Shown here: positions 2,278-11,713 of the stretch, piece by piece | How positions within the stretch are numbered: position 1 is the stretch's first letter | Layout of the letters: the number at the start of each line of letters is the position of its first letter | NCBI GenBank assembly: GCA_024276815.1 | Contig: JAJRWM010000053.1 | Location: 1 to 11,713, forward strand | Length of the DNA stretch: 11,713 bases | From: a bacterium | Lineage (GTDB): Bacteria; JACRDZ01; JAJRWM01 | Direction: 5' to 3' | Program-made: the position numbers and the translations under genes | The notes under the pieces: generated by a model | The model's database searches: none | Told to the model about the DNA's origin: nothing | Seen by the model: the letters and a program-made list of their open reading frames with translations, nothing else

Positions 2278-3813
2278 ATGAAAATTGGCGACAACGTCAA
2301 AGTTAATCTTTATGGAGCAGGAAAGAAAAAACATAAAAGTCTTGTCCTGAATAAACATGGCGAGTTAACCTATCTGGAACATTTGCTTAAACGGTTAAAA
2401 AGCATTCCCCGGCTGGAGATTGTTCTCAGCGCCAGCCCCGGGGATAACTGTGAGGAGTTAACCAGAATCGCCCAAAAAGCAAAGTGCCCGCTCTTTTTCG
2501 ACTCGGAAACGGAGCGCCATCAACGCTTGTTAAACACCATGAAAAAATTTAAATTCGACGCCATGCTGGATCTGCCCGCCATCTATTGCGCTCTGGGTAT
2601 TGAGCACACCAAGGCAATGATAAACGACCATTGCCAAAGCGGCGCCGAGATAACGGTTCCCGTAAACTTTCCCGCCGGGGGCACACCTTTATCCGTTCTC
2701 TCGCTGAAGGCGTTAGAGAAAATGGTCAAGATTGGTTATGATAAACCATACTACAAGGACTTGGAAGCGTTATCCGATGATCTGGAAGTTAATTTTTATG
2801 AATTGGAAGGTCAGCGGACCTATTTTGAAACCAGTTTGATTCTGGCAACCGAGAAGAACAGAGTACGGGTAGACTATCTGTTAACCCTGAACCCGGCAAC
2901 AATGAAAGACGAAGAAAAAACATATGAGGAGTTAAATAAACAGGACAAGCATGATCTTTTTTTTAAAAAAACAACCTGTTTCACGTTGGAAACGACCAAT
3001 CTTTGTAACCTGCGCTGTATCGGCTGCGTACACGGTATGAAATTGTTGACCAGGGAAAAGGGGATCATGTCACTGGATGATTTCAAAAGAATAATCCGGG
3101 ATATTCCCGAAGGTTCAGGCCTGAACATGTTTGGTTTTGGCGAGCCGTTTATTAACAAAGACATCTATCAGATGTTCAATCTGACGAAAAATATGCGTAC
3201 CAACACCTCGACCAACGGTCATTACTTCCACTCCGAGAAAAACAGAAACAGGTTGGTTGAATCGCACTTGGACCATCTTGTGGTCGCCATTGACGGAGCG
3301 AGTGAAGAAACCTATTCCAAGTATCGCAAGCGAGGCATGTTCACCCGTATCATCAATGATATCAGGAAGTTAATTGAATTACGGGATTCGAAGGGGGTTG
3401 AAACGCCCCAAATAGACATGCAGTTTATTCTTTTTAAATTTAACGAGCATGAGGCGGAGTTGGCCGGAAAGCTGGCTGATGAAACAGGGTTTGATAATAT
3501 TTTATACAAAACAACCCTGGGAAAATTAAAGGGCGCGTCTAAAATGCGGGTGAAGAAGGATCGCAGCCTCCGGGTTTTTGCCAAGTCACACTTCCTCTCG
3601 CCCTTTCGCAGTTGTCTCACGCCAATGATTATGTGGAATGGCGATGTCAGTCCCTGCTGTCATCTTTTTAATGGCGACCTGGTCATTGGCAATATGGTCC
3701 GACAAACTTATGACGAAATAAAACAAACAGATGTTTTTAAAGAGTTTGTTCAGCGCCGGGTAGCTCTTGAGGAAGATGCCTGCGCTAAACACGCTTGCTA
3801 CTGCTATTCTTAA
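2278..3813 (+). CDS. Radical SAM/SPASM protein with N-terminal SpsF-like nucleotidyltransferase domain
   Basis: A 511-residue fusion. Residues about 230-440 are a radical SAM domain. The cluster motif is C243-x3-C247-x2-C250 (CNLRCIGC), expected to hold the 4Fe-4S cluster that cleaves S-adenosylmethionine, followed by 'FGFGEPFINKD' in the GGEP position and 'HLVVAIDGASEETYSKYR'. The C-terminus (from 'SCLTPMIMWNGDVSPCCHLF') is a SPASM-type extra-cluster domain with Cys residues near 502, 507 and 509. Residues 1 to about 225 resemble SpsF/CMP-KDO-synthetase cytidylyltransferases in order: 'LEIVLSASPGDN', 'SETERHQRLLNTMKKFKFDAM', 'NFPAGGTPLSVLSLKALE', 'VRVDYLLTLNPA'. The usual N-terminal nucleotide-binding signature and the acidic motif after the second strand are not recognisable, so this half may bind a sugar nucleotide without catalysis. 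Lying downstream of two glycosyltransferases, it may modify a nucleotide-activated sugar or glycan; the substrate is unknown. The radical SAM part is certain; the SpsF assignment is moderate. Confidence 0.85.
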   Translation: MKIGDNVKVNLYGAGKKKHKSLVLNKHGELTYLEHLLKRLKSIPRLEIVLSASPGDNCEELTRIAQKAKCPLFFDSETERHQRLLNTMKKFKFDAMLDLPAIYCALGIEHTKAMINDHCQSGAEITVPVNFPAGGTPLSVLSLKALEKMVKIGYDKPYYKDLEALSDDLEVNFYELEGQRTYFETSLILATEKNRVRVDYLLTLNPATMKDEEKTYEELNKQDKHDLFFKKTTCFTLETTNLCNLRCIGCVHGMKLLTREKGIMSLDDFKRIIRDIPEGSGLNMFGFGEPFINKDIYQMFNLTKNMRTNTSTNGHYFHSEKNRNRLVESHLDHLVVAIDGASEETYSKYRKRGMFTRIINDIRKLIELRDSKGVETPQIDMQFILFKFNEHEAELAGKLADETGFDNILYKTTLGKLKGASKMRVKKDRSLRVFAKSHFLSPFRSCLTPMIMWNGDVSPCCHLFNGDLVIGNMVRQTYDEIKQTDVFKEFVQRRVALEEDACAKHACYCYS

Positions 3814-3845: not shown

Positions 3846-5105
3846 TCAGGGCGTGCCGGTCAAAGTAAACGCGGCCCAGTAAACCGGGTGCGGATAGTAC
3901 TTTTTCACTAAAAGCTGGGCTTTCTGAAGAGCCGCCGCCCGGTCGTTACCTGATAAATAACGGTAGAACCGCTTGGTGATAACCGCGGCGGTGACATCGT
4001 TAACGCGCCAGAGCGTTGAGACCACGCCGGGAACGCCGGCGAAAAGAAAGGCCCGGTTCAGCCCGCTGATCTCTTCGCCCTGATACTGGTTGCCCAGGCC
4101 GGTCTGGCAGGCGCTTAAAGTAACCAGTTGAGCCGTCAGCTTCATCCCTAATATCTCTCTGACCCTTAAATGGCCATCGTTGTCCTCATCGGGAGCCAGT
4201 TCAAGGGCTGAGAAAAGAGGGCTTTGGGGCGCGAGTTTCCCGTGCGAGCCAAAATGGACAGCCTGGTAGCCGCCGGCCAGTTTTTTAAAAACGCTTTCAG
4301 TCGCTTTTTCGCCCACCAAGCCGGTCGTCCGGCTGAAGGAACGGGCAATACTCTTCACTTCTTTTTCCGAGAAGGGCAATTGATCGTTTTTCCGCCCTGT
4401 TTTGGGATTGCCAAAAGCAAGTACGTTTTGGATACCGGGCCTGCTTAAAGAGCGGCAATAGGGTAAGAGGTTCGCCTGGGGCAACTGGATTAACTGAAAT
4501 TTCTCTACTAAAAATTTTTCCCCGTCGTAAAGGCTGGCAAAGGGCAAATAGTGCAGATTGAGATGGGGAACCAGGTAAATCCTGCCAATCTGAGTTAATT
4601 CTTTTTCCAGAGGCGCGAACAGGGTTTGATATAAGGACCGGGATAATTGCCGGTAGCCGGCGGTTTTTTCTATCTGTGACCGGTAGGCCGCGATCAGCTC
4701 AAGCAGTTTGGCTTTTTCAATTCCGACTGAATACATCTTTAAGTCGGTCCCGGTCAGCAACCATAGATATAGTTCTTTTTCACTGATAAAATAAGCGAGT
4801 ACCGCTTCGTCGGCGGCCAGATTGTCTTGCAGGGCGTTCAGCCCTACCCGGTCCGAGGCGACCAGGTAGTAGAGGTTGGGATGATCTTTTCGCCAGCCGG
4901 CCAGGATAGTTTCTTTTTGTTCTTTTGTTTTACGTAGCCGCGGTGCAATCGCCGGGCCTGGTATCGCGGCGGCCAACTGGCTGTTTAAAGAGTTTTCCCG
5001 CCGCCACAGCTTCAGATATTCCTCCCAGGTTTCGCCGGCTTCTTCACTGGCGAACTTGATCTCCCGGGCGGATATCAGGTTTAAAAAGGCGGCCGCCTTG
5101 GCCTG
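3846..5105 (-). CDS. C-terminal segment: CHAT domain with intact His/Cys dyad
   Basis: CHAT (caspase HetF associated with TPRs) is a caspase-fold cysteine peptidase family. This 419-codon segment starts in the pre-CHAT helices ('QAKAAAFLNLISAREIKF') and holds a complete CHAT domain. In order: 'AVLAYFISEKELYLWLL', 'SLYQTLFAPLEKEL', 'IYLVPHLNLHYLPFASLYDG', 'VLAFGNPK', 'LPFSEKEVKSIA', then the catalytic motifs 'VHFGSHG' (His codon 4244-4242) and 'LVTLSACQTG' (Cys codon 4109-4107), 'EISGLNRAFLFAGVPGVVST' and the closing 'HPVYWAAFTLTG'. All hallmarks and a normal end are present, so as a domain it looks active. The best available start on its own is a TTG at 4976, without a ribosome site and inside the linker; the segment is better read as the C-terminus of the giant protein behind the TAA at 5108-5106. 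The target is unknown; family members cleave proteins when a TPR partner senses a signal. Confidence 0.85.
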   Translation of the reverse strand, partial: QAKAAAFLNLISAREIKFASEEAGETWEEYLKLWRRENSLNSQLAAAIPGPAIAPRLRKTKEQKETILAGWRKDHPNLYYLVASDRVGLNALQDNLAADEAVLAYFISEKELYLWLLTGTDLKMYSVGIEKAKLLELIAAYRSQIEKTAGYRQLSRSLYQTLFAPLEKELTQIGRIYLVPHLNLHYLPFASLYDGEKFLVEKFQLIQLPQANLLPYCRSLSRPGIQNVLAFGNPKTGRKNDQLPFSEKEVKSIARSFSRTTGLVGEKATESVFKKLAGGYQAVHFGSHGKLAPQSPLFSALELAPDEDNDGHLRVREILGMKLTAQLVTLSACQTGLGNQYQGEEISGLNRAFLFAGVPGVVSTLWRVNDVTAAVITKRFYRYLSGNDRAAALQKAQLLVKKYYPHPVYWAAFTLTGTP

Positions 5106-5108
5106 TTA
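5106..5108 (-). other. In-frame TAA stop before the C-terminal CHAT
   Basis: Minus-strand TAA lies in 'LSFRYS*QAKAAAFLNLIS'. This is the pre-CHAT helix, which in the family commonly reads like 'xxERxKARxFLDLL'. A Glu codon (GAA, one base different) is therefore the likeliest original. The frame continues to the end of the CHAT domain. Confidence 0.75.
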
Positions 5109-5384
5109 ACTGTACCGGAAGGATAAGGCGGACTCTTTTAAACGCCAGCCCAGCGCGATCGTTTTTTCATATAAAAGCGCCGGCGTTTCCGCCAGTTCGT
5201 AAGCGCTTGACGCTCCCCGGGCCTTGGGCGCTCTTCGGGAAAGGATTTCCAGGGCTTGCCCGTAAAGAGAATAAGCTTCTCTCGCCAGACCTTTTTTTTC
5301 ATTGATTAGCCCCAGCTTAAAAAGCGCCCGCCAGCGGAACTCGCCAAACCCCGACGCTTTCGCCAGTCTGGCCGCTTGCTGATA
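5109..5384 (-). pseudogene. Short TPR segment between two in-frame stops
   Basis: A 92-codon open stretch in the same frame as its neighbours, continuing the second TPR array: 'RWRALFKLGLINEKKGLARE', 'AYSLYGQALEIL', 'AYELAETPALLYEKTIALGW'. It contains no start codon with a ribosome site and would not be translated unless the stop at 5387-5385 is suppressed or is an error. It is the evidence that the middle and C-terminal segments belong to one protein. Confidence 0.7.
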
Positions 5385-5387
5385 CTA
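5385..5387 (-). other. In-frame TAG stop within TPR helix
   Basis: Minus-strand TAG falls in 'NESEAVE*YQQAARLAKA', a TPR helix that continues in the same frame past the stop. A Gln or Glu codon differing by one base (CAG or GAG) would be normal at this place. It is followed by 92 sense codons before the next stop. Confidence 0.75.
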
Positions 5388-7689
5388 TTCAACGGCCTCG
5401 CTTTCGTTTTGCCGGGCATAAGAATTCCCCAACTGGAGCAGGATTAAAAGTCGCTCAGGAATATTGTTGAGCTGACGGGCATATCCGAGCGCGGTTTTTT
5501 GATAGTTAATAGCCTCGTCGATTTGTCCCCTTTTAAAGGAATTAAGCCCGAGATTACGATAGTCATACATCTGTCCCCAGGCCGAGTTCAGTTCCTTGTC
5601 AATAGCGAGCGCCAGCTTGAAGGCGTCAAACGCTTCCCTTAACTGGTTATTCTTTTGATAGGTCAGGCCCTGGTTGTTAAAGGCTGTCGCCAGTTCGGCC
5701 TGATCGTTGATCTGCCGGGCCAGTTTGACAACTTTCTCTTGCTCGGTCAGCGCTTCAGCCAGGCGACCTTCGTCACGTAAAATCAGGCCCAGTAACGTCC
5801 TGGCGGTTAGCTCCAGCTTGGAATCAGCCCTGAGTTGACCGGCCCGCTCCAACGCCAGCCGGGTCAGTTCCCGGGCTTTTTGTCGGTCGCCCAGCTTCCA
5901 GTAGGCGTTGGCCTGGTCAACCAGGGAAGCGGCGTAAAGGTTTTCTGCCTGCAGGGCTTCAGCGTCTTTCGCCGTGGCCCGGGCTTTATTTAAAGCCTCT
6001 TGGAATTTGCCGGATTTTAACAGGGTACGCCCTGCGCCCTGTTCGACCTGGATCATTTTGTCAGGCAAATTCAGTTTTGTATAAATTTCCAAAGCCTTGT
6101 TGAAGTCGCTGAGTGCGCCCTCGTAATCGTCCCGGTCAACTGTTTTGAAATTCGCCCGCTCAAAATAGTTTTGGGCCAGCAATTCATCCAGGCGTTCTGC
6201 CCGGCAAATAGTTATGCTTTTTTGGAAGAAGGTTAGAGAATTCGGGAAATCACGTTTCGCCTGATACATTTTGGCCAGATTGTTATATGTTTCAGCCAGG
6301 GCTTGGGCGTTTTGATATTTCAGCAGATAGCGGACAAGAGCTTCCCCAACGGCGGCGGCTTTGGTAAACTGACGGGCCTTGCTTCTCAGGTAAAACAGTT
6401 TTTGCCGGGCTGGATAGATTTTCTCCGGGGGCTGGCCGTCGGCCCCGGCCTCCCTGACCAATATCTCCTGGTAATCCGCCGCCTTGGCGTACGAAGCGTT
6501 GTTTATACCGGCCAGAATAATCGCGGAGTAAATTTTGTCTCGGTCCGCCGCGCTGGTCCCGGGGATATCCTTAGCCATCGAAGCGGCTAACTCGAAGAGG
6601 TTCAAAGCGACCTCCCATTTCTTTTTGGCGAAGGCTTGCAAGGCCTGCTTTAAAGTTTTGGAGTAGATTTCTTCTTTGAAAACCGCTTGTTCCCCGGTCG
6701 TCAGTCCTCCGTAACCGTAGAGCTGTAAACCGGCCCAGTCGCGCGGAGCCGGATGCTTGACTTTAAAATCCCGGATGATTTCTCTCAGAGCCTGGGCTTC
6801 CGGTTGCTTTTTTAAACGGGAGTAGTATTGTTCAAGCAGCTCCAGCTGAAGCGCGGCCGGTATTGGCCAGCCTGATATGACGGCTTGCGGACAGCCGCTG
6901 TAAAGCAGCGCCCGGAGAAAGAGCCGCTTCGACATTTCGTTTTCATTCGTTAGTTGCCGATTGGGTAATACCAACAAGGCGCAGTCAAGCCGCTTTTGGA
7001 ATAACAAATCGTTGGCTAACCGGCCGTTCCGGGTTTCAATCCCGCTTTCCCAGGGATTTACCTGAGCAAAATCCGGGGCGTCAAACCAACTGATGACGCC
7101 ATAACTGGCAATTTTGTCTGACAGGTTATGAATATCCTTGTTGGTATACCGGCTTTGGTGCAAAAATAATTTGGCGGCGGCGGTGGTAAACCGGTCGGTT
7201 TTTGCCCGGTCCGCCGGCCCGACATCTTCCGGGAGATTCACGATTAGGTGGCTGGTATAGTTCAGGTTTTTCTTGCGGAAGCTGCTTAGCCACTGCTTCA
7301 GACTGAAATTGCTGACGAGTTCAAATTGGTCGATCAGGTAGCCTTGCCCGTAGGGCAGCGCGCCGAAAGGTATTCGGGAGATCACTTGATCGTTAACCAG
7401 GTGAACGCGGGTATGTTTTTCCAGTTTTCGGGCCAGCGGTTCGATTAGAAGCCTGGAAAGCTCTTCCCCGGCTTGCCGATAATTTTTACCGGCCTGAACC
7501 GCTGACAGAAAACCATTAATCTTTTCCTTGAGATTACCTTGGTTAACTTCTTGGTAATAATAATTAATTTCATCTTTTGCGATTAACCAGATATTGATTC
7601 CCTTTTCCGTGACCTGATAGTCTAAAAGAGCGGTTTTTTCGTTAAGCTCACTTTGGATCTGGGATAAGAAAACGGCGTAACCCAGTAAA
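5385..7689 (-). CDS. Middle segment: inactive CHAT-like domain and second TPR array
   Basis: Continuation of the giant protein after the frameshift. From about 7660 to 6710 it follows the CHAT layout: 'KTALLDYQVTEKGINIWLI', 'LLIEPLARKLEKHTRVHLV', 'IPFGALPYGQGYLIDQFELV', then the core. Where the C-terminal CHAT domain has 'VHFGSHG' and 'LVTLSACQTG', this one has 'VISWFDAP' (around 7091) and 'LLVLPNRQLT' (around 6970), so both catalytic His and Cys are missing. It keeps the fold markers 'FLRALLYSGCPQAVISGWPI', parallel to 'FLFAGVPGVVSTLWRV'. From about 6690 on it is TPR repeats, e.g. 'AETYNNLAKMYQAKRDFPNS' and 'EGALSDFNKALEIYTKLNL'. It ends at TAG 5387-5385 in the middle of a TPR helix ('EAVE*YQQAARLAK'). 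The first possible start is a GTG at 7385, deep inside the domain and without a ribosome site, so it is not an independent gene. Confidence 0.8.
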
Positions 7690-10600
7690 GCGCGGCGAGG
7701 TCAGGACTCTCCGTTATGGTTTTTTCTTTCAGGACAAGATATGCCCGCCAGAGTTCCTCCCTTTCCCGCCGGTCCTTATCCTTAACAGAGTAAAGCAGGC
7801 TGGCTATTTGCCGCTGGTGATATTCAATGTCTCTCGCGGTAATATTGTCTAGTTCGCTTTTAAGAGACAGCTTCTTGCCGGCGGTAAGCCGGATTAAGTT
7901 GAAATGTCGTTTCCGTTCCAAAACCTCTAAAGCCCGGCGCTGTTGGTTTTGGCCAAGATAATAATCAATCAGCCCCTGGTAAAGCGTGGCGGCGTCAACG
8001 TCCGGGCGGACCCCTTCCCGCCCGCTTAAAAAATAACTGTTTTCCAGTACATCCAGGGCCGCTAAAAACAGTTTTTCCGCCGCCCGGGGATTGGCCGGCA
8101 ACTCAAGCTCCGCCTTTAATTTCAATAAACGCCATTTTAAAAGCCGGTCGCCGCTGGTCTTTGTCTCCGCTAAAAGTTGTTCCAGTTCTGTGGCCGCTTG
8201 TTCGTATTCACCCAGGGCAAGCTGCAGGTTAAGCAGGTTAAAACGCAATGCCGCCGCTCCCCTGAAGTTCTTTTGCCGCTCCAGTTTTTTGCCGCCGTTT
8301 CGCCAGTGGCGTTCCGCCTGGTAAAAATCGCGCAGAGAGGAATCCTGCCATTTGATGATATCAGCCAGTTCCCGGCTCTCAAGCGAGGTCCTCCGGGCAG
8401 AATAACCCCGCAGGTAAAATAAAATACCGAGCAGGTTGTCAGCGTAACCAAAATTATTTTCATATCCCAACTCCCTGATTACTCCCAGGGCTTTTTCGCC
8501 GTACTTGATCGCCATCTGAAAACTGCGCGGCGGCGGGAAAGATTTCTCGCTGAACTCCGCGTAGCTTCGCTCAACCGCTATCCGGGCCAGGTTAAGGAAA
8601 TCAATCAGTTTTCCGTAAGGATCATGGCGGCGTATTTTACCCAGGGACTCAAGAGTTTTCTCCCGCGCGCTTTCAAGCTGATTGGTCAGGTAGTAAATAA
8701 AACCAAGGTTGTTCAGTATGATCGCTTGTTCTTTTTGCTCAGCCGAAAAGCTCAAAGCGTTCAGCCGTTTGTTCAGGATGGCGGCCGAATCGCCGTAATT
8801 TTGCCTGTTTGAATAGATCTTCGCTAAATAACTGTAGATGAGTTTTCTCTCTTTGTCGATGCTAAATCCCCGGGTTGCCGAACTCTGTTGCCCGCCTAAT
8901 CCTACCTGGACCGAAAAACGTAAAAGGCCCTCCCGCGCGTTGTCCGACTCTTTAACCCGCTCGAGCTGTGAGAGCGCGTCTTTCAGATAGCGTTCCGCTT
9001 CCTGTTCTTCATCCAGCACAAAATAGTTGCGGCCAATATTCAGGTTGATAATGTGCCCCGGTACCGCCAGACCTTTTTCTTTCCTGAGGGTCAGTATCTC
9101 CCGGTAGAGATTAATCGCCGCGATATAGTCTCCGGCGGTTTCCTGAGCGAACGCTTCCAGGGCCAGGACCTGGCTGTATTTGTCCCAGAGAGACTGTGTC
9201 TTGTATAGCGCCGCCGCTTTTTGGTAAACAGCCAAAGCCTGCCGGTTGAGGTTGAGCATACTTAAACTGCGGCCCCAGTTACGGTAGAACAAGGCTTCGG
9301 TGTTTAAATCGGGCTTGTGGACCGGCAGTTCAGAGCGCAGTTGGTAGTAAAGGGCGGCCAACTGGAAATTCCCCTTGAAATAGCTGATATTGCCGAGAGC
9401 CAGGTTGATATCGGCTTCCAACTCGGGGTTTGTTTTCTGATCATTTATCGCCCGGGCCAGACCATAATTATCCAGAAAAGCCTGGTAAAAAGTCTCGTTG
9501 ATCGAATCCCTCTGTTCTCTTTCGGCAATCAGTTTTTGTTCATAGATCCAGCCGCGGGCCAGATAGGCGTAAAGCAGGCGGTTGTCCAGTTCCAGGGCCT
9601 TGGTCAGTTCCTTGACGGCGAAAGCGAAGAACTCCCCGCCCTGATAGGTGAAGGAAAGCCCCAGGGCGTAATGCAGGGTCGCGGAGTTTTTGTTTACAGC
9701 AAGGTTACTTTTTATCAGCTTGATTAACGGATTTAATTTACCCTGCTTGGCGTAGCATTTGACAATCTGGCGATAAGCCCCGGCCGAGTCGGGAAAAAGG
9801 TCGAGCGTTTTTTCGAAATAATTGGCCGCTAACGGGAAATCGTCCTGCCCAATCGCTTGGAATCCCTGCCGGAAATAAATATCCGCCGCTCGCTGACGAG
9901 CCTGTTTCCTCTTCTCCGGATCGGGAAAGCCGAAGAGCCGCTGATAAAATTTTATCGCCGCTTCGTCCTGGTTCCTGTTTTGCGTAATGACTCCGCTTTG
10001 ATAGGCCGCGCGGAAGTAAAATTCATGTTCAGCCGGCAACCTGGTCAGGATTTTTTGGTATTCCGATAAAGCCAAATCCCAATCCCGGTCGGTTTCATAT
10101 TCGGAGGCGATTAAGGCCGTTACGCGGGCGAACAATTCGCTGCTTTGGGGATGCTTGTCCAGGATCCCGCGGTAAAGCGAGAGCCTTTTCCCCCGGTTGG
10201 GCTCGGTCCTGATATCGGCGATTAAAGCCTGCAAAGCCTTTTCCACCCACTTGCCAGCGGAAGAATAATCGGTAATGACCTTCAGATAACTTTTTTGCGC
10301 TTCGCTGGAAAAGTTGAGCGCGCTTTGCACCCGCCCCATTTTGTAAATCGCTTGCGCTACTTGCCGTTTTTCGTCAGGATAAAGAGCGGGAACGCTCTGG
10401 TAAGCTGATAACGCCTGGTCCAGAAACCCCTGCTCCAGCAGGATATCCGCCTTTAAAATGACCATTTCCGCTAAAATATCAGGAAATTCGGCATAGTCTG
10501 AGGCCAGGTTGTCAAGTCTGGCGAAAAGCCGATTCCCGGAAGCGCTTATTTTTTGATTGATTCGCAGTTGATAGATATGAGCGGTGGCGGCTCGTTTTTT

Positions 10601-11713
10601 CAGCGAGGAGTAATCTGATTGTACGCGCTGAAAGGCCCGCCAGGCGGCTAAATAATTCTTGTTCTCCGCTTCAAGCTGACCTGAAATCATTAGGGCCCGG
10701 CTGGCTTCGGCCACTGAGCCGGGAAATTTGGCGACAACCTTTTCCAGCGCTAAAGCTTTCAGTTTCAGGTCTTGGATGGCAAGCGCCAGTTCCAGTTGCT
10801 CTCCGGCGTCCGCCATATCGGGAATCAGCCCGTCTGATTTAAGTGACAGAATGTCGCTGGTCGCGTCTTTTTGCCTGGTGAAATAAATCCTCTCCCGCGA
10901 GACCGCCGGGTAGTAATCGAAATGCTCCGGCAGAGTTAACCGGCTTTCCTTCATGGTGTTTAAATCAATTTTCACCAAGTGGGGGAAATCCTCAAGGTTA
11001 ATCTTGTTATCGCCGTTGGTGTCATCGGAGTAACGATAAAAATATATCCGGTCGTCAAACCCGAAAACCGGGAAAGCGTCGATGTTAATGCCGTCGGTCA
11101 AGGCGGTTGAAAAGCCATTTTGAAGGTCAAGCAGGATGAGGCTGGCGCCGGTTTCGGTTTTGCTGGCGAAAACAAGCCAACTGCCATCAGGCGAGATGTC
11201 GGGGTTAAGGCCGTTTTCCCATATTTTCTCGGGTTCTTCGTTTCCTCCCAGCCTTAAGCGGTAAATATCCGTTATCTCGGCGTTACCACGAGTCCTGGTA
11301 TAGATTACGCCGCGGCCGTCCGGGGTGAATTTCGGACTATGCTCTTCCCCTTTGCCGGAAGTCAGTTTGCGCGCCGTGCCGCCAAAAGATTTAAGATATA
11401 TTTTGCCGAAGGCGTTATCCCGCCGGGAAACAAAAACCACTCTTTTACCGGTTCGGTCTATATCGGGTTCGTAATTATCACCGCTGTGAAAAGTCAATTG
11501 TTTCGCCGCGCTGTTTTGGCCGGATTTGTACCAGATGTCCTGTTGTCCGCCGCGGTCGCTGACAAAAACGATTAATTCGCCGTTCCAGGAAACCGCGCTT
11601 TGAAAATCGTCCGCCGGATGAGTCGTGACGGGAAGGGGCCGGCTCGCTCTCAGCGCCGCGGAATAATCCCGGGCGGCCAGACCGGGCGGTTTAATGATGA
11701 AAAACAACCAGGA
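7622..11713 (-). CDS. N-terminal segment: TolB/PD40-like propeller and TPR array (5' partial)
   Basis: Longest uninterrupted piece of the giant gene; the frame is open at the right edge. The first residues (SWLFFIIKPPGLAARDYS) look like the end of a signal peptide or membrane helix, so the protein is probably exported, and the true start is likely off-window rather than the TTG at 11707. About 30-295 residues in are PD40/TolB-type propeller blades, each with a 'D-x-x-G-x-x-(V/L)-V/I-F/Y' core ('ISPDGSWLVFAS', 'FTPDGRGVIYTR', 'IDRTGKRVVFVS'). An EF-hand-like loop is inserted at 11023-10988. About 900 residues of TPR-type helical hairpins follow, e.g. 'GQDDFPLAANYFEKTLDLFP' and 'AVKELTKALELDNRLLYAY'. 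The last part ('ALEVLERKRHFNLIRL', then 'ESPDLAALL') is the helical lead-in usually found before CHAT domains. The final ~21 residues (from 'YWVTPF') are read out of frame after the frameshift and are not real. Confidence 0.8.
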   Translation of the reverse strand, partial: SWLFFIIKPPGLAARDYSAALRASRPLPVTTHPADDFQSAVSWNGELIVFVSDRGGQQDIWYKSGQNSAAKQLTFHSGDNYEPDIDRTGKRVVFVSRRDNAFGKIYLKSFGGTARKLTSGKGEEHSPKFTPDGRGVIYTRTRGNAEITDIYRLRLGGNEEPEKIWENGLNPDISPDGSWLVFASKTETGASLILLDLQNGFSTALTDGINIDAFPVFGFDDRIYFYRYSDDTNGDNKINLEDFPHLVKIDLNTMKESRLTLPEHFDYYPAVSRERIYFTRQKDATSDILSLKSDGLIPDMADAGEQLELALAIQDLKLKALALEKVVAKFPGSVAEASRALMISGQLEAENKNYLAAWRAFQRVQSDYSSLKKRAATAHIYQLRINQKISASGNRLFARLDNLASDYAEFPDILAEMVILKADILLEQGFLDQALSAYQSVPALYPDEKRQVAQAIYKMGRVQSALNFSSEAQKSYLKVITDYSSAGKWVEKALQALIADIRTEPNRGKRLSLYRGILDKHPQSSELFARVTALIASEYETDRDWDLALSEYQKILTRLPAEHEFYFRAAYQSGVITQNRNQDEAAIKFYQRLFGFPDPEKRKQARQRAADIYFRQGFQAIGQDDFPLAANYFEKTLDLFPDSAGAYRQIVKCYAKQGKLNPLIKLIKSNLAVNKNSATLHYALGLSFTYQGGEFFAFAVKELTKALELDNRLLYAYLARGWIYEQKLIAEREQRDSINETFYQAFLDNYGLARAINDQKTNPELEADINLALGNISYFKGNFQLAALYYQLRSELPVHKPDLNTEALFYRNWGRSLSMLNLNRQALAVYQKAAALYKTQSLWDKYSQVLALEAFAQETAGDYIAAINLYREILTLRKEKGLAVPGHIINLNIGRNYFVLDEEQEAERYLKDALSQLERVKESDNAREGLLRFSVQVGLGGQQSSATRGFSIDKERKLIYSYLAKIYSNRQNYGDSAAILNKRLNALSFSAEQKEQAIILNNLGFIYYLTNQLESAREKTLESLGKIRRHDPYGKLIDFLNLARIAVERSYAEFSEKSFPPPRSFQMAIKYGEKALGVIRELGYENNFGYADNLLGILFYLRGYSARRTSLESRELADIIKWQDSSLRDFYQAERHWRNGGKKLERQKNFRGAAALRFNLLNLQLALGEYEQAATELEQLLAETKTSGDRLLKWRLLKLKAELELPANPRAAEKLFLAALDVLENSYFLSGREGVRPDVDAATLYQGLIDYYLGQNQQRRALEVLERKRHFNLIRLTAGKKLSLKSELDNITARDIEYHQRQIASLLYSVKDKDRREREELWRAYLVLKEKTITESPDLAALYWVTPFSYPRSKVSLTKKPLF
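7687..7689 (-). other. Frameshift site in the giant gene
   Basis: Reading the minus strand, GCG CTT TAC TGG gives the nonsense tail YWVTPFSYP and stops at TAG 7624-7622. One extra T in the T-run gives GCG CTT TTA CTG GGT, and translation continues 'LLGYAVFLSQIQSELNEKT'. This completes the normal pre-CHAT/CHAT junction ('P-x-L-A-x-L ... IQ-x-x-L ... ALL-x-Y'). The second frame has a stop at 7703-7701, so the switch must lie between there and 7622. There is no slippery heptamer here. Confidence 0.8.
10988..11023 (-). other. EF-hand/dockerin-like calcium loop inside the propeller
   Basis: The translated 12-residue loop DTNGDNKINLED has acidic or amide side chains at positions 1 (D), 3 (N), 5 (D), 9 (N) and 12 (D), Gly at 4 and Ile at 8. 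This matches the canonical EF-hand/dockerin calcium-binding pattern. It sits between propeller strands ('IYFYRYSD' before, 'FPHLVKIDL' after), so it is an insertion in a blade rather than a dockerin module, which would need a pair of loops. Calcium binding is inferred. Confidence 0.65.

Follow-up and report, generated by a model that had tools for sequence, protein, structure and literature searches.

A giant TolB-like propeller protein with two TPR-CHAT units, the first a predicted pseudo-protease, and its homologues in several bacterial phyla

The window analysed in this study comprises 11,713 nucleotides and represents an entire contig (JAJRWM010000053.1) of a bacterial genome of 2.39 Mb in 246 contigs, whose completeness is estimated at 91%. 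Its minus strand (11713–3846) encodes a giant protein, which consists, in this order, of a TolB-like propeller, tetratricopeptide repeats (TPRs), a CHAT domain, further TPRs and a second CHAT domain. This layout as one giant chain had been proposed in the initial annotation and was confirmed by Pfam analysis and by many intact homologues with an identical domain order. Beyond that, it was found that the middle CHAT domain lacks both catalytic residues and that the two TPR-CHAT halves are, judged from their sequences, duplicates.

Domain architecture and the two CHAT units

Three open stretches were present on the minus strand: 11713–7622 (1,363 codons, truncated by the contig edge), 7676–5385 and 5384–3846. 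Reading through them yields a protein of 2,620 residues. In Pfam, the first stretch matched PD40 (E 4.8e-19) and TPR families. The second contains CHAT (PF12770, E 1e-17) together with TPR_12 (E 2.5e-29), and the third a further CHAT domain (PF12770, E 2.2e-61). In the whole source genome, PF12770 showed two matches only, at 6714–7475 (66.1 bits) and 3855–4649 (210.5 bits; cut-off 24). The features, all on the minus strand, are as follows.

11640–11713, minus: N-terminal hydrophobic stretch (SWLFFIIKPPGLAARDYSAA...), probable end of a signal peptide (sequence and N termini of homologues)
10814–11638, minus: TolB/PD40-like beta-propeller (PD40 E 4.8e-19; the propeller of a homologue resembles solved TolB)
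10988–11023, minus: 12-residue calcium loop of the EF-hand/dockerin type (DTNGDNKINLED) within the propeller (family alignment)
7964–10801, minus: first TPR array (TPR_19, TPR_12 and TPR_2 above cut-off)
7653–7676, minus: frame change from the propeller-TPR part to the middle CHAT part (open reading frame list, frames, alignment with homologues)
6699–7652, minus: middle CHAT domain, predicted pseudo-protease (PF12770, 66 bits; structure model; fold comparison; His and Cys absent)
4827–6690, minus: second TPR array and linker with two in-frame stops (TPR_12 E 2.5e-29; homologues read through)
5385–5387, minus: in-frame TAG inside the second TPR array (read-through compared with a homologue)
5106–5108, minus: in-frame TAA inside the TPR-CHAT linker (read-through compared with a homologue)
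3846–4826, minus: C-terminal CHAT domain with intact His-Cys dyad, end of the gene (PF12770 E 2.2e-61; motif conservation)

The C-terminal CHAT domain possesses the motifs HFGSHG and LSACQTGLG, which form the His-Cys dyad. In a family alignment of 67 homologues, from which all motif counts of the CHAT units and the calcium loop were taken, His-Gly occurred in 64 and Cys in 66 sequences, and this dyad and its surroundings are the most conserved portion of the whole chain across phyla. In the middle CHAT domain of the window, the places of the two motifs are occupied by YGVISWFDAPDF and LLVLPNRQL, and neither motif was present in any homologue examined in the alignment. On this sequence evidence, the middle domain is a predicted pseudo-protease throughout the family, and only the C-terminal domain can be a protease. 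Thus, both CHAT domains of the initial annotation are present, but its view of the protein as a protease can apply to the second one only. An EF-hand-like stretch in the C-terminal CHAT domain (DEDNDGHLRVREI) was not conserved as such in the family alignment.

The middle domain of the window was modelled with AlphaFold2 (AF2) together with 61 homologues (predicted local distance difference test, pLDDT, 85; predicted template modelling score, pTM, 0.87). The model resembled Csx29 (Z 24.9, 3.2 Å over 293 residues) and the separase of Chaetomium (Z 24.4, 2.9 Å over 281 residues), which argues against the possibility, raised in the initial annotation, that this region is not CHAT-like. A separate AF2 model of the middle unit from Humidesulfovibrio, the most diverged branch, gave a pLDDT of 89 and a separase Z of 16.9, and profile comparison ties this unit to the middle domain of the window (88%). 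Two independent models thus point to a CHAT/separase fold. A sequence search of the PDB with profiles of the C-terminal CHAT or the pseudo-CHAT domain revealed no relative, so that the link is by fold alone. Csx29 was described with a pseudo-caspase and an active-caspase part (PMC10028731). Because a single CHAT domain in the sense of Pfam covers both of these caspase-like parts of Csx29, the giant chain contains two complete separase-type units, the first of which is, by its residues, dead throughout the family.

The TPR-linker-CHAT stretch before residue 1,670 of the window protein is homologous to the stretch behind it (E 3e-17), and the same relation was found within homologue L110 (E 2e-25 over approximately 490 residues). 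The two TPR-CHAT units are therefore, on the basis of this similarity, products of an ancient internal duplication, and the architecture can be described as a TolB-like propeller followed by two copies of a TPR-CHAT unit.

The propeller of a homologue matched solved TolB structures (E 3e-14). The calcium loop of the giant's propeller, which had already been noted in the initial annotation, reads DxNxDGxLxxxD, and the pattern D-x-[DNS]-x-D-x6-[DE] is kept in 43 of the 67 homologues, including all 20 from Nitrospinota. Regarding the loop as incidental, as it is missing in a Desulfovibrionales protein, was dismissed, since the family alignment shows its conservation elsewhere. The likewise predicted export is supported by hydrophobic N-terminal signal sequences in 54 of 61 intact homologues, and most of the others have doubtful starts. 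The contig ends a few residues before the expected start of the protein; since the window opens inside a hydrophobic, signal-like stretch, the start codon probably lies just past the contig edge. The giant is probably exported, and an extracytoplasmic location fits the combination of a TolB-like propeller, N-terminal signals and a calcium-type loop.

The closest known proteins compare with the giant as follows. Csx29, the TPR-CHAT protease of the type III-E Craspase, likewise consists of TPRs followed by CHAT and shares its fold with the middle domain of the giant; unlike the giant, it comprises approximately 650–750 amino acids, has one CHAT unit, neither propeller nor signal, and a CRISPR partner. 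Membership in Csx29/Craspase was rejected (NCBIfam NF041237, 34.4 bits for the C-terminal CHAT domain of the window and 41.2 bits for homologue L035; cut-off 300). Eukaryotic separase (peptidase C50) also combines large helical repeats with a C-terminal CHAT-like protease, but in the giant the protease unit is duplicated, with one copy predicted to be dead, a TPR array lies in between, and the protein is predicted to be exported; PF03568 (C50) reached 17.3 bits vs a cut-off of 27.8. TolB of the Tol-Pal system is homologous in the propeller region only, which in the giant is fused to the TPR-CHAT units, and the TolB equivalog TIGR02800 scored 149.3 bits vs a cut-off of 343 in L035, covering the propeller only. 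Finally, the transmembrane anti-sigma factor DdvA (PDB 8rot and 8rw5; Z 18.6 and 15.2) is an envelope protein with a CHAT-like fold; it differs from the giant by its function as an anti-sigma factor, its size of approximately 900 residues and its single CHAT-like region.

Homologues and integrity of the gene

A scan of named genomes revealed 78 homologous loci in Nitrospinota, Nitrospirota, Candidatus Nitrotoga, Magnetococcales, Desulfobacterota (Geobacter, Desulfuromonadaceae, Desulfobacteraceae, Desulfobulbaceae and Humidesulfovibrio) and one organism labelled Myxococcota. Single open frames of 2,249–3,178 amino acids were found in 61 of these loci; three were interrupted (L054, L057 and L106), and the other 14 run off their contigs. 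An intact protein of 2,658 amino acids from Nitrospinota (L035) gave one alignment to residues 26–2618 of the window protein (751 bits). By this full-length colinear match, the window protein belongs to the family as defined by the order propeller-TPR-pseudo-CHAT-TPR-CHAT; the family's own profile also detects the pseudo-CHAT domain in the window, which is partly so by construction. For the phylum of the source genome, three other genomes were available for comparison. Genome G026, which belongs to another phylum, encodes an intact protein of 2,886 amino acids that matches the read-through along its length (E 4e-96); further giants occur in the same order as G026 and in a domain-wide sample of 386 genomes. 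The middle domain was found in about eight of these 386 genomes and, as a strong match, in 38 of 77 Nitrospinota genomes, mostly in frames of more than 2,400 amino acids. The family tree largely tracks the phyla, with Nitrospinota forming one clade.

The window's own sequence alone gave no match when used as the query for the scan of genome contigs, because its nearest relatives are only about 27–31% identical, and the conservation of a short TPR block was insufficient as well; a scan with the distant alignment succeeded. Eight other large CHAT proteins of the sample (e.g. L036, L041, L039 and L040) were excluded from the family, as they have no detectable pseudo-CHAT domain. Among the giants of this kind, L039, L040 and L043 comprise 2,315–2,353 amino acids and consist of TPRs that end in an active CHAT domain. 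No equivalog of NCBIfam covers the giant, and no description of a giant twin-CHAT family was found in the open-access papers searched. Each building block, be it CHAT, TPR or TolB propeller, is known. New to us are a twin unit that includes a conserved pseudo-protease, its fusion to a propeller, and the envelope operon described below.

The three breaks noted in the initial annotation are real in the given sequence, and the window copy does not form the single uninterrupted frame seen in 61 homologues. The frames as given would suit a division into two or three genes (propeller-TPR, CHAT-TPR and TPR-CHAT), and consistently split homologues, at 7689 or 5387, had been named as the observation that would speak against one chain. 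The 61 intact frames elsewhere and the giants in other sampled genomes refute such a split, for which hardly any probability remains. With 61 of the 78 loci as single open frames, only three interrupted and all others truncated by contig ends, the giant is, by comparison of these sequences, one gene.

These particular breaks are confined to this contig. The frameshift and the pair of in-frame stops might also indicate that the gene is a decaying pseudogene in the source organism instead of a functional gene with sequence errors. This is doubtful, because the approximately 2,600 codons between the lesions are open and can be aligned from end to end, and because only three of the 64 homologues uncut by contig ends are likewise broken. 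Additionally, a glycosyltransferase gene of the same contig seems to be frame-shifted too (near 610–622), which suggests base errors throughout the contig. The lesions fit assembly base errors or a young pseudogene; we favour errors, and the family is unaffected by this choice. An alternative genetic code was ruled out, since one stop is TAG and the other TAA, and since other genes of the window end normally.

Gene neighbourhood

Outside Nitrospinota, a conserved order was found, which consists of genes for an AsmA-like protein, a DUF1318 lipoprotein, the giant, a small SH3 protein and an M48 metalloprotease. The AsmA-like gene (approximately 1,200 codons) lies upstream of the giant in 30 of 37 loci with enough flanking sequence, and the DUF1318 gene lies directly upstream in 32 of 40 loci, where it usually overlaps the start of the giant by 3–27 nucleotides. 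Downstream, the SH3 gene was detected in 23 of 38 and the M48 gene in 26 of 35 loci. As this operon occurs in Nitrospirota, Magnetococcales, Nitrotoga and Desulfobacterota, the description of the giant as self-contained in the initial annotation is doubtful. A DUF1318-type gene is also located upstream of L040 and L043, in which no pseudo-CHAT domain was detected; the operon link may therefore exceed the twin-CHAT family.

The ydbH-ynbE-ydbL locus of E. coli is comparable to many of these loci, in which AsmA-like and DUF1318 (YdbL-type) genes likewise lie upstream of the giant; such partners were not found around the window or the Nitrospinota giants. YdbL is a DUF1318 protein, and the E. coli locus is not known to include a CHAT giant. 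The AsmA-like YdbH is, with YhdP and TamB, essential for lipid homeostasis of the outer membrane (PMC8593681).

In several Nitrospinota loci (L058, L063, L066, L110 and others), a conserved gene pair of approximately 258 and 765 codons follows the giant, and the product of the second gene carries membrane segments and perhaps a VWA part. In the window itself, two tandem glycosyltransferase-like units are located at 1–2208 on the plus strand. The second unit has an apparent ATG start near 572 in another frame, and its apparent frame change near 610–622 would be a fourth lesion of the contig. A radical SAM/SPASM protein (PF04055 and PF13186) is encoded at 2278–3813 on the plus strand; its gene is convergent and ends about 30 bases from the stop of the giant. 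In genome G003, which belongs to the same phylum as the source genome, locus L024 (4659–18127) contains two adjacent HEAT-TPR-CHAT genes (1,960 and 1,396 amino acids) and, after them, a gene for a WD40 protein whose C-terminal part is caspase-like; this arrangement resembles conflict systems.

Proposed function and its significance

The role as sensor, scaffold and protease suggested in the initial annotation is putative, and the following mechanism is proposed. The giant would reside in the periplasm or at the envelope, where the propeller, stabilised by calcium, might dock on an envelope partner. The C-terminal protease, of clan CD, would be restrained by the TPR coils and released when a ligand or a damaged protein binds, and the pseudo-CHAT unit could act on the active unit allosterically or dock its substrates, like pseudo-caspase domains. 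Switching by a ligand would resemble the control of Csx29, whose His-Cys dyad is set allosterically by a region away from the active part, namely the TPR/activation region (PMC10028731). The activated protease would then perform specific cuts for outer-membrane or lipid-transport homeostasis, together with the AsmA-like, DUF1318 and M48 proteins where these are present. We consider the chances even that the giant works by this combined mechanism, as a separase-like protease of the envelope whose activity is regulated and which contains its own pseudo-protease. Its role in lipid transport or outer-membrane upkeep, deduced from the neighbouring genes alone, is proposed with less confidence. It is rather unlikely that the family represents an undescribed envelope system conserved in several phyla, in which a separase-like protease, regulated by its dead twin and tethered by a calcium-dependent TolB-like propeller, controls an AsmA-type lipid bridge by specific proteolysis.

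Several observations weigh against the protease mechanism at the envelope. Proteolysis by the giant is a predicted activity, the window's own copy of the gene has three lesions, and Geobacterales and Desulfovibrionaceae lack the calcium loop. Furthermore, Pfam gives no more than a match below its cut-off to AsmA for the upstream gene (E 0.02), which makes this assignment weak. No match to DUF1318 or M48 was found in the 91%-complete source genome, where the upstream side lies beyond the contig, and the AsmA-like, DUF1318, SH3 and M48 partners were not seen around the Nitrospinota giants; an outer-membrane role can therefore not rest on the operon partners everywhere.

Conflict systems commonly include CHAT proteins (e.g. 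Csx29; PMC10028731), and G003 has its HEAT-TPR-CHAT genes beside a WD40-caspase gene. The giant might thus be a cytoplasmic effector or sensor of a defence system that recognises invaders, similar to TPR-CHAT and HEAT-CHAT proteins such as Csx29 and gasdermin-cleaving proteases. This appears improbable in view of the N-terminal export signals, the same envelope-gene operon in several phyla and a tree that largely follows the phyla with Nitrospinota as one clade; defence models gave generic TPR matches only. Somewhat more weight, although it is still unlikely, may be given to a non-proteolytic envelope scaffold, in which propeller and TPRs bind partners and the CHAT units are mere binding modules: one CHAT unit is, by its residues, certainly inactive, and DdvA also matches the CHAT fold. 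Such a scaffold is difficult to reconcile with the conservation of the C-terminal dyad and its surroundings, which exceeds that of all other parts of the chain across phyla.

Most of what is known about bacterial CHAT proteases concerns defence, for example Craspase and SAVED-CHAT systems. For the giant family, which is conserved across Nitrospinota, Nitrospirota, Magnetococcales, Nitrotoga and Desulfobacterota, another setting is suggested, at the envelope and housekeeping-like in character. Its internal duplication, with one unit apparently dead in every member, would represent a natural experiment on the regulation of separase-type proteases. The control of AsmA-like and DUF1318 genes is poorly understood, and the family links a putative protease to these genes; with Geobacter sp. 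OR-1 and Nitrotoga, it includes cultured members.

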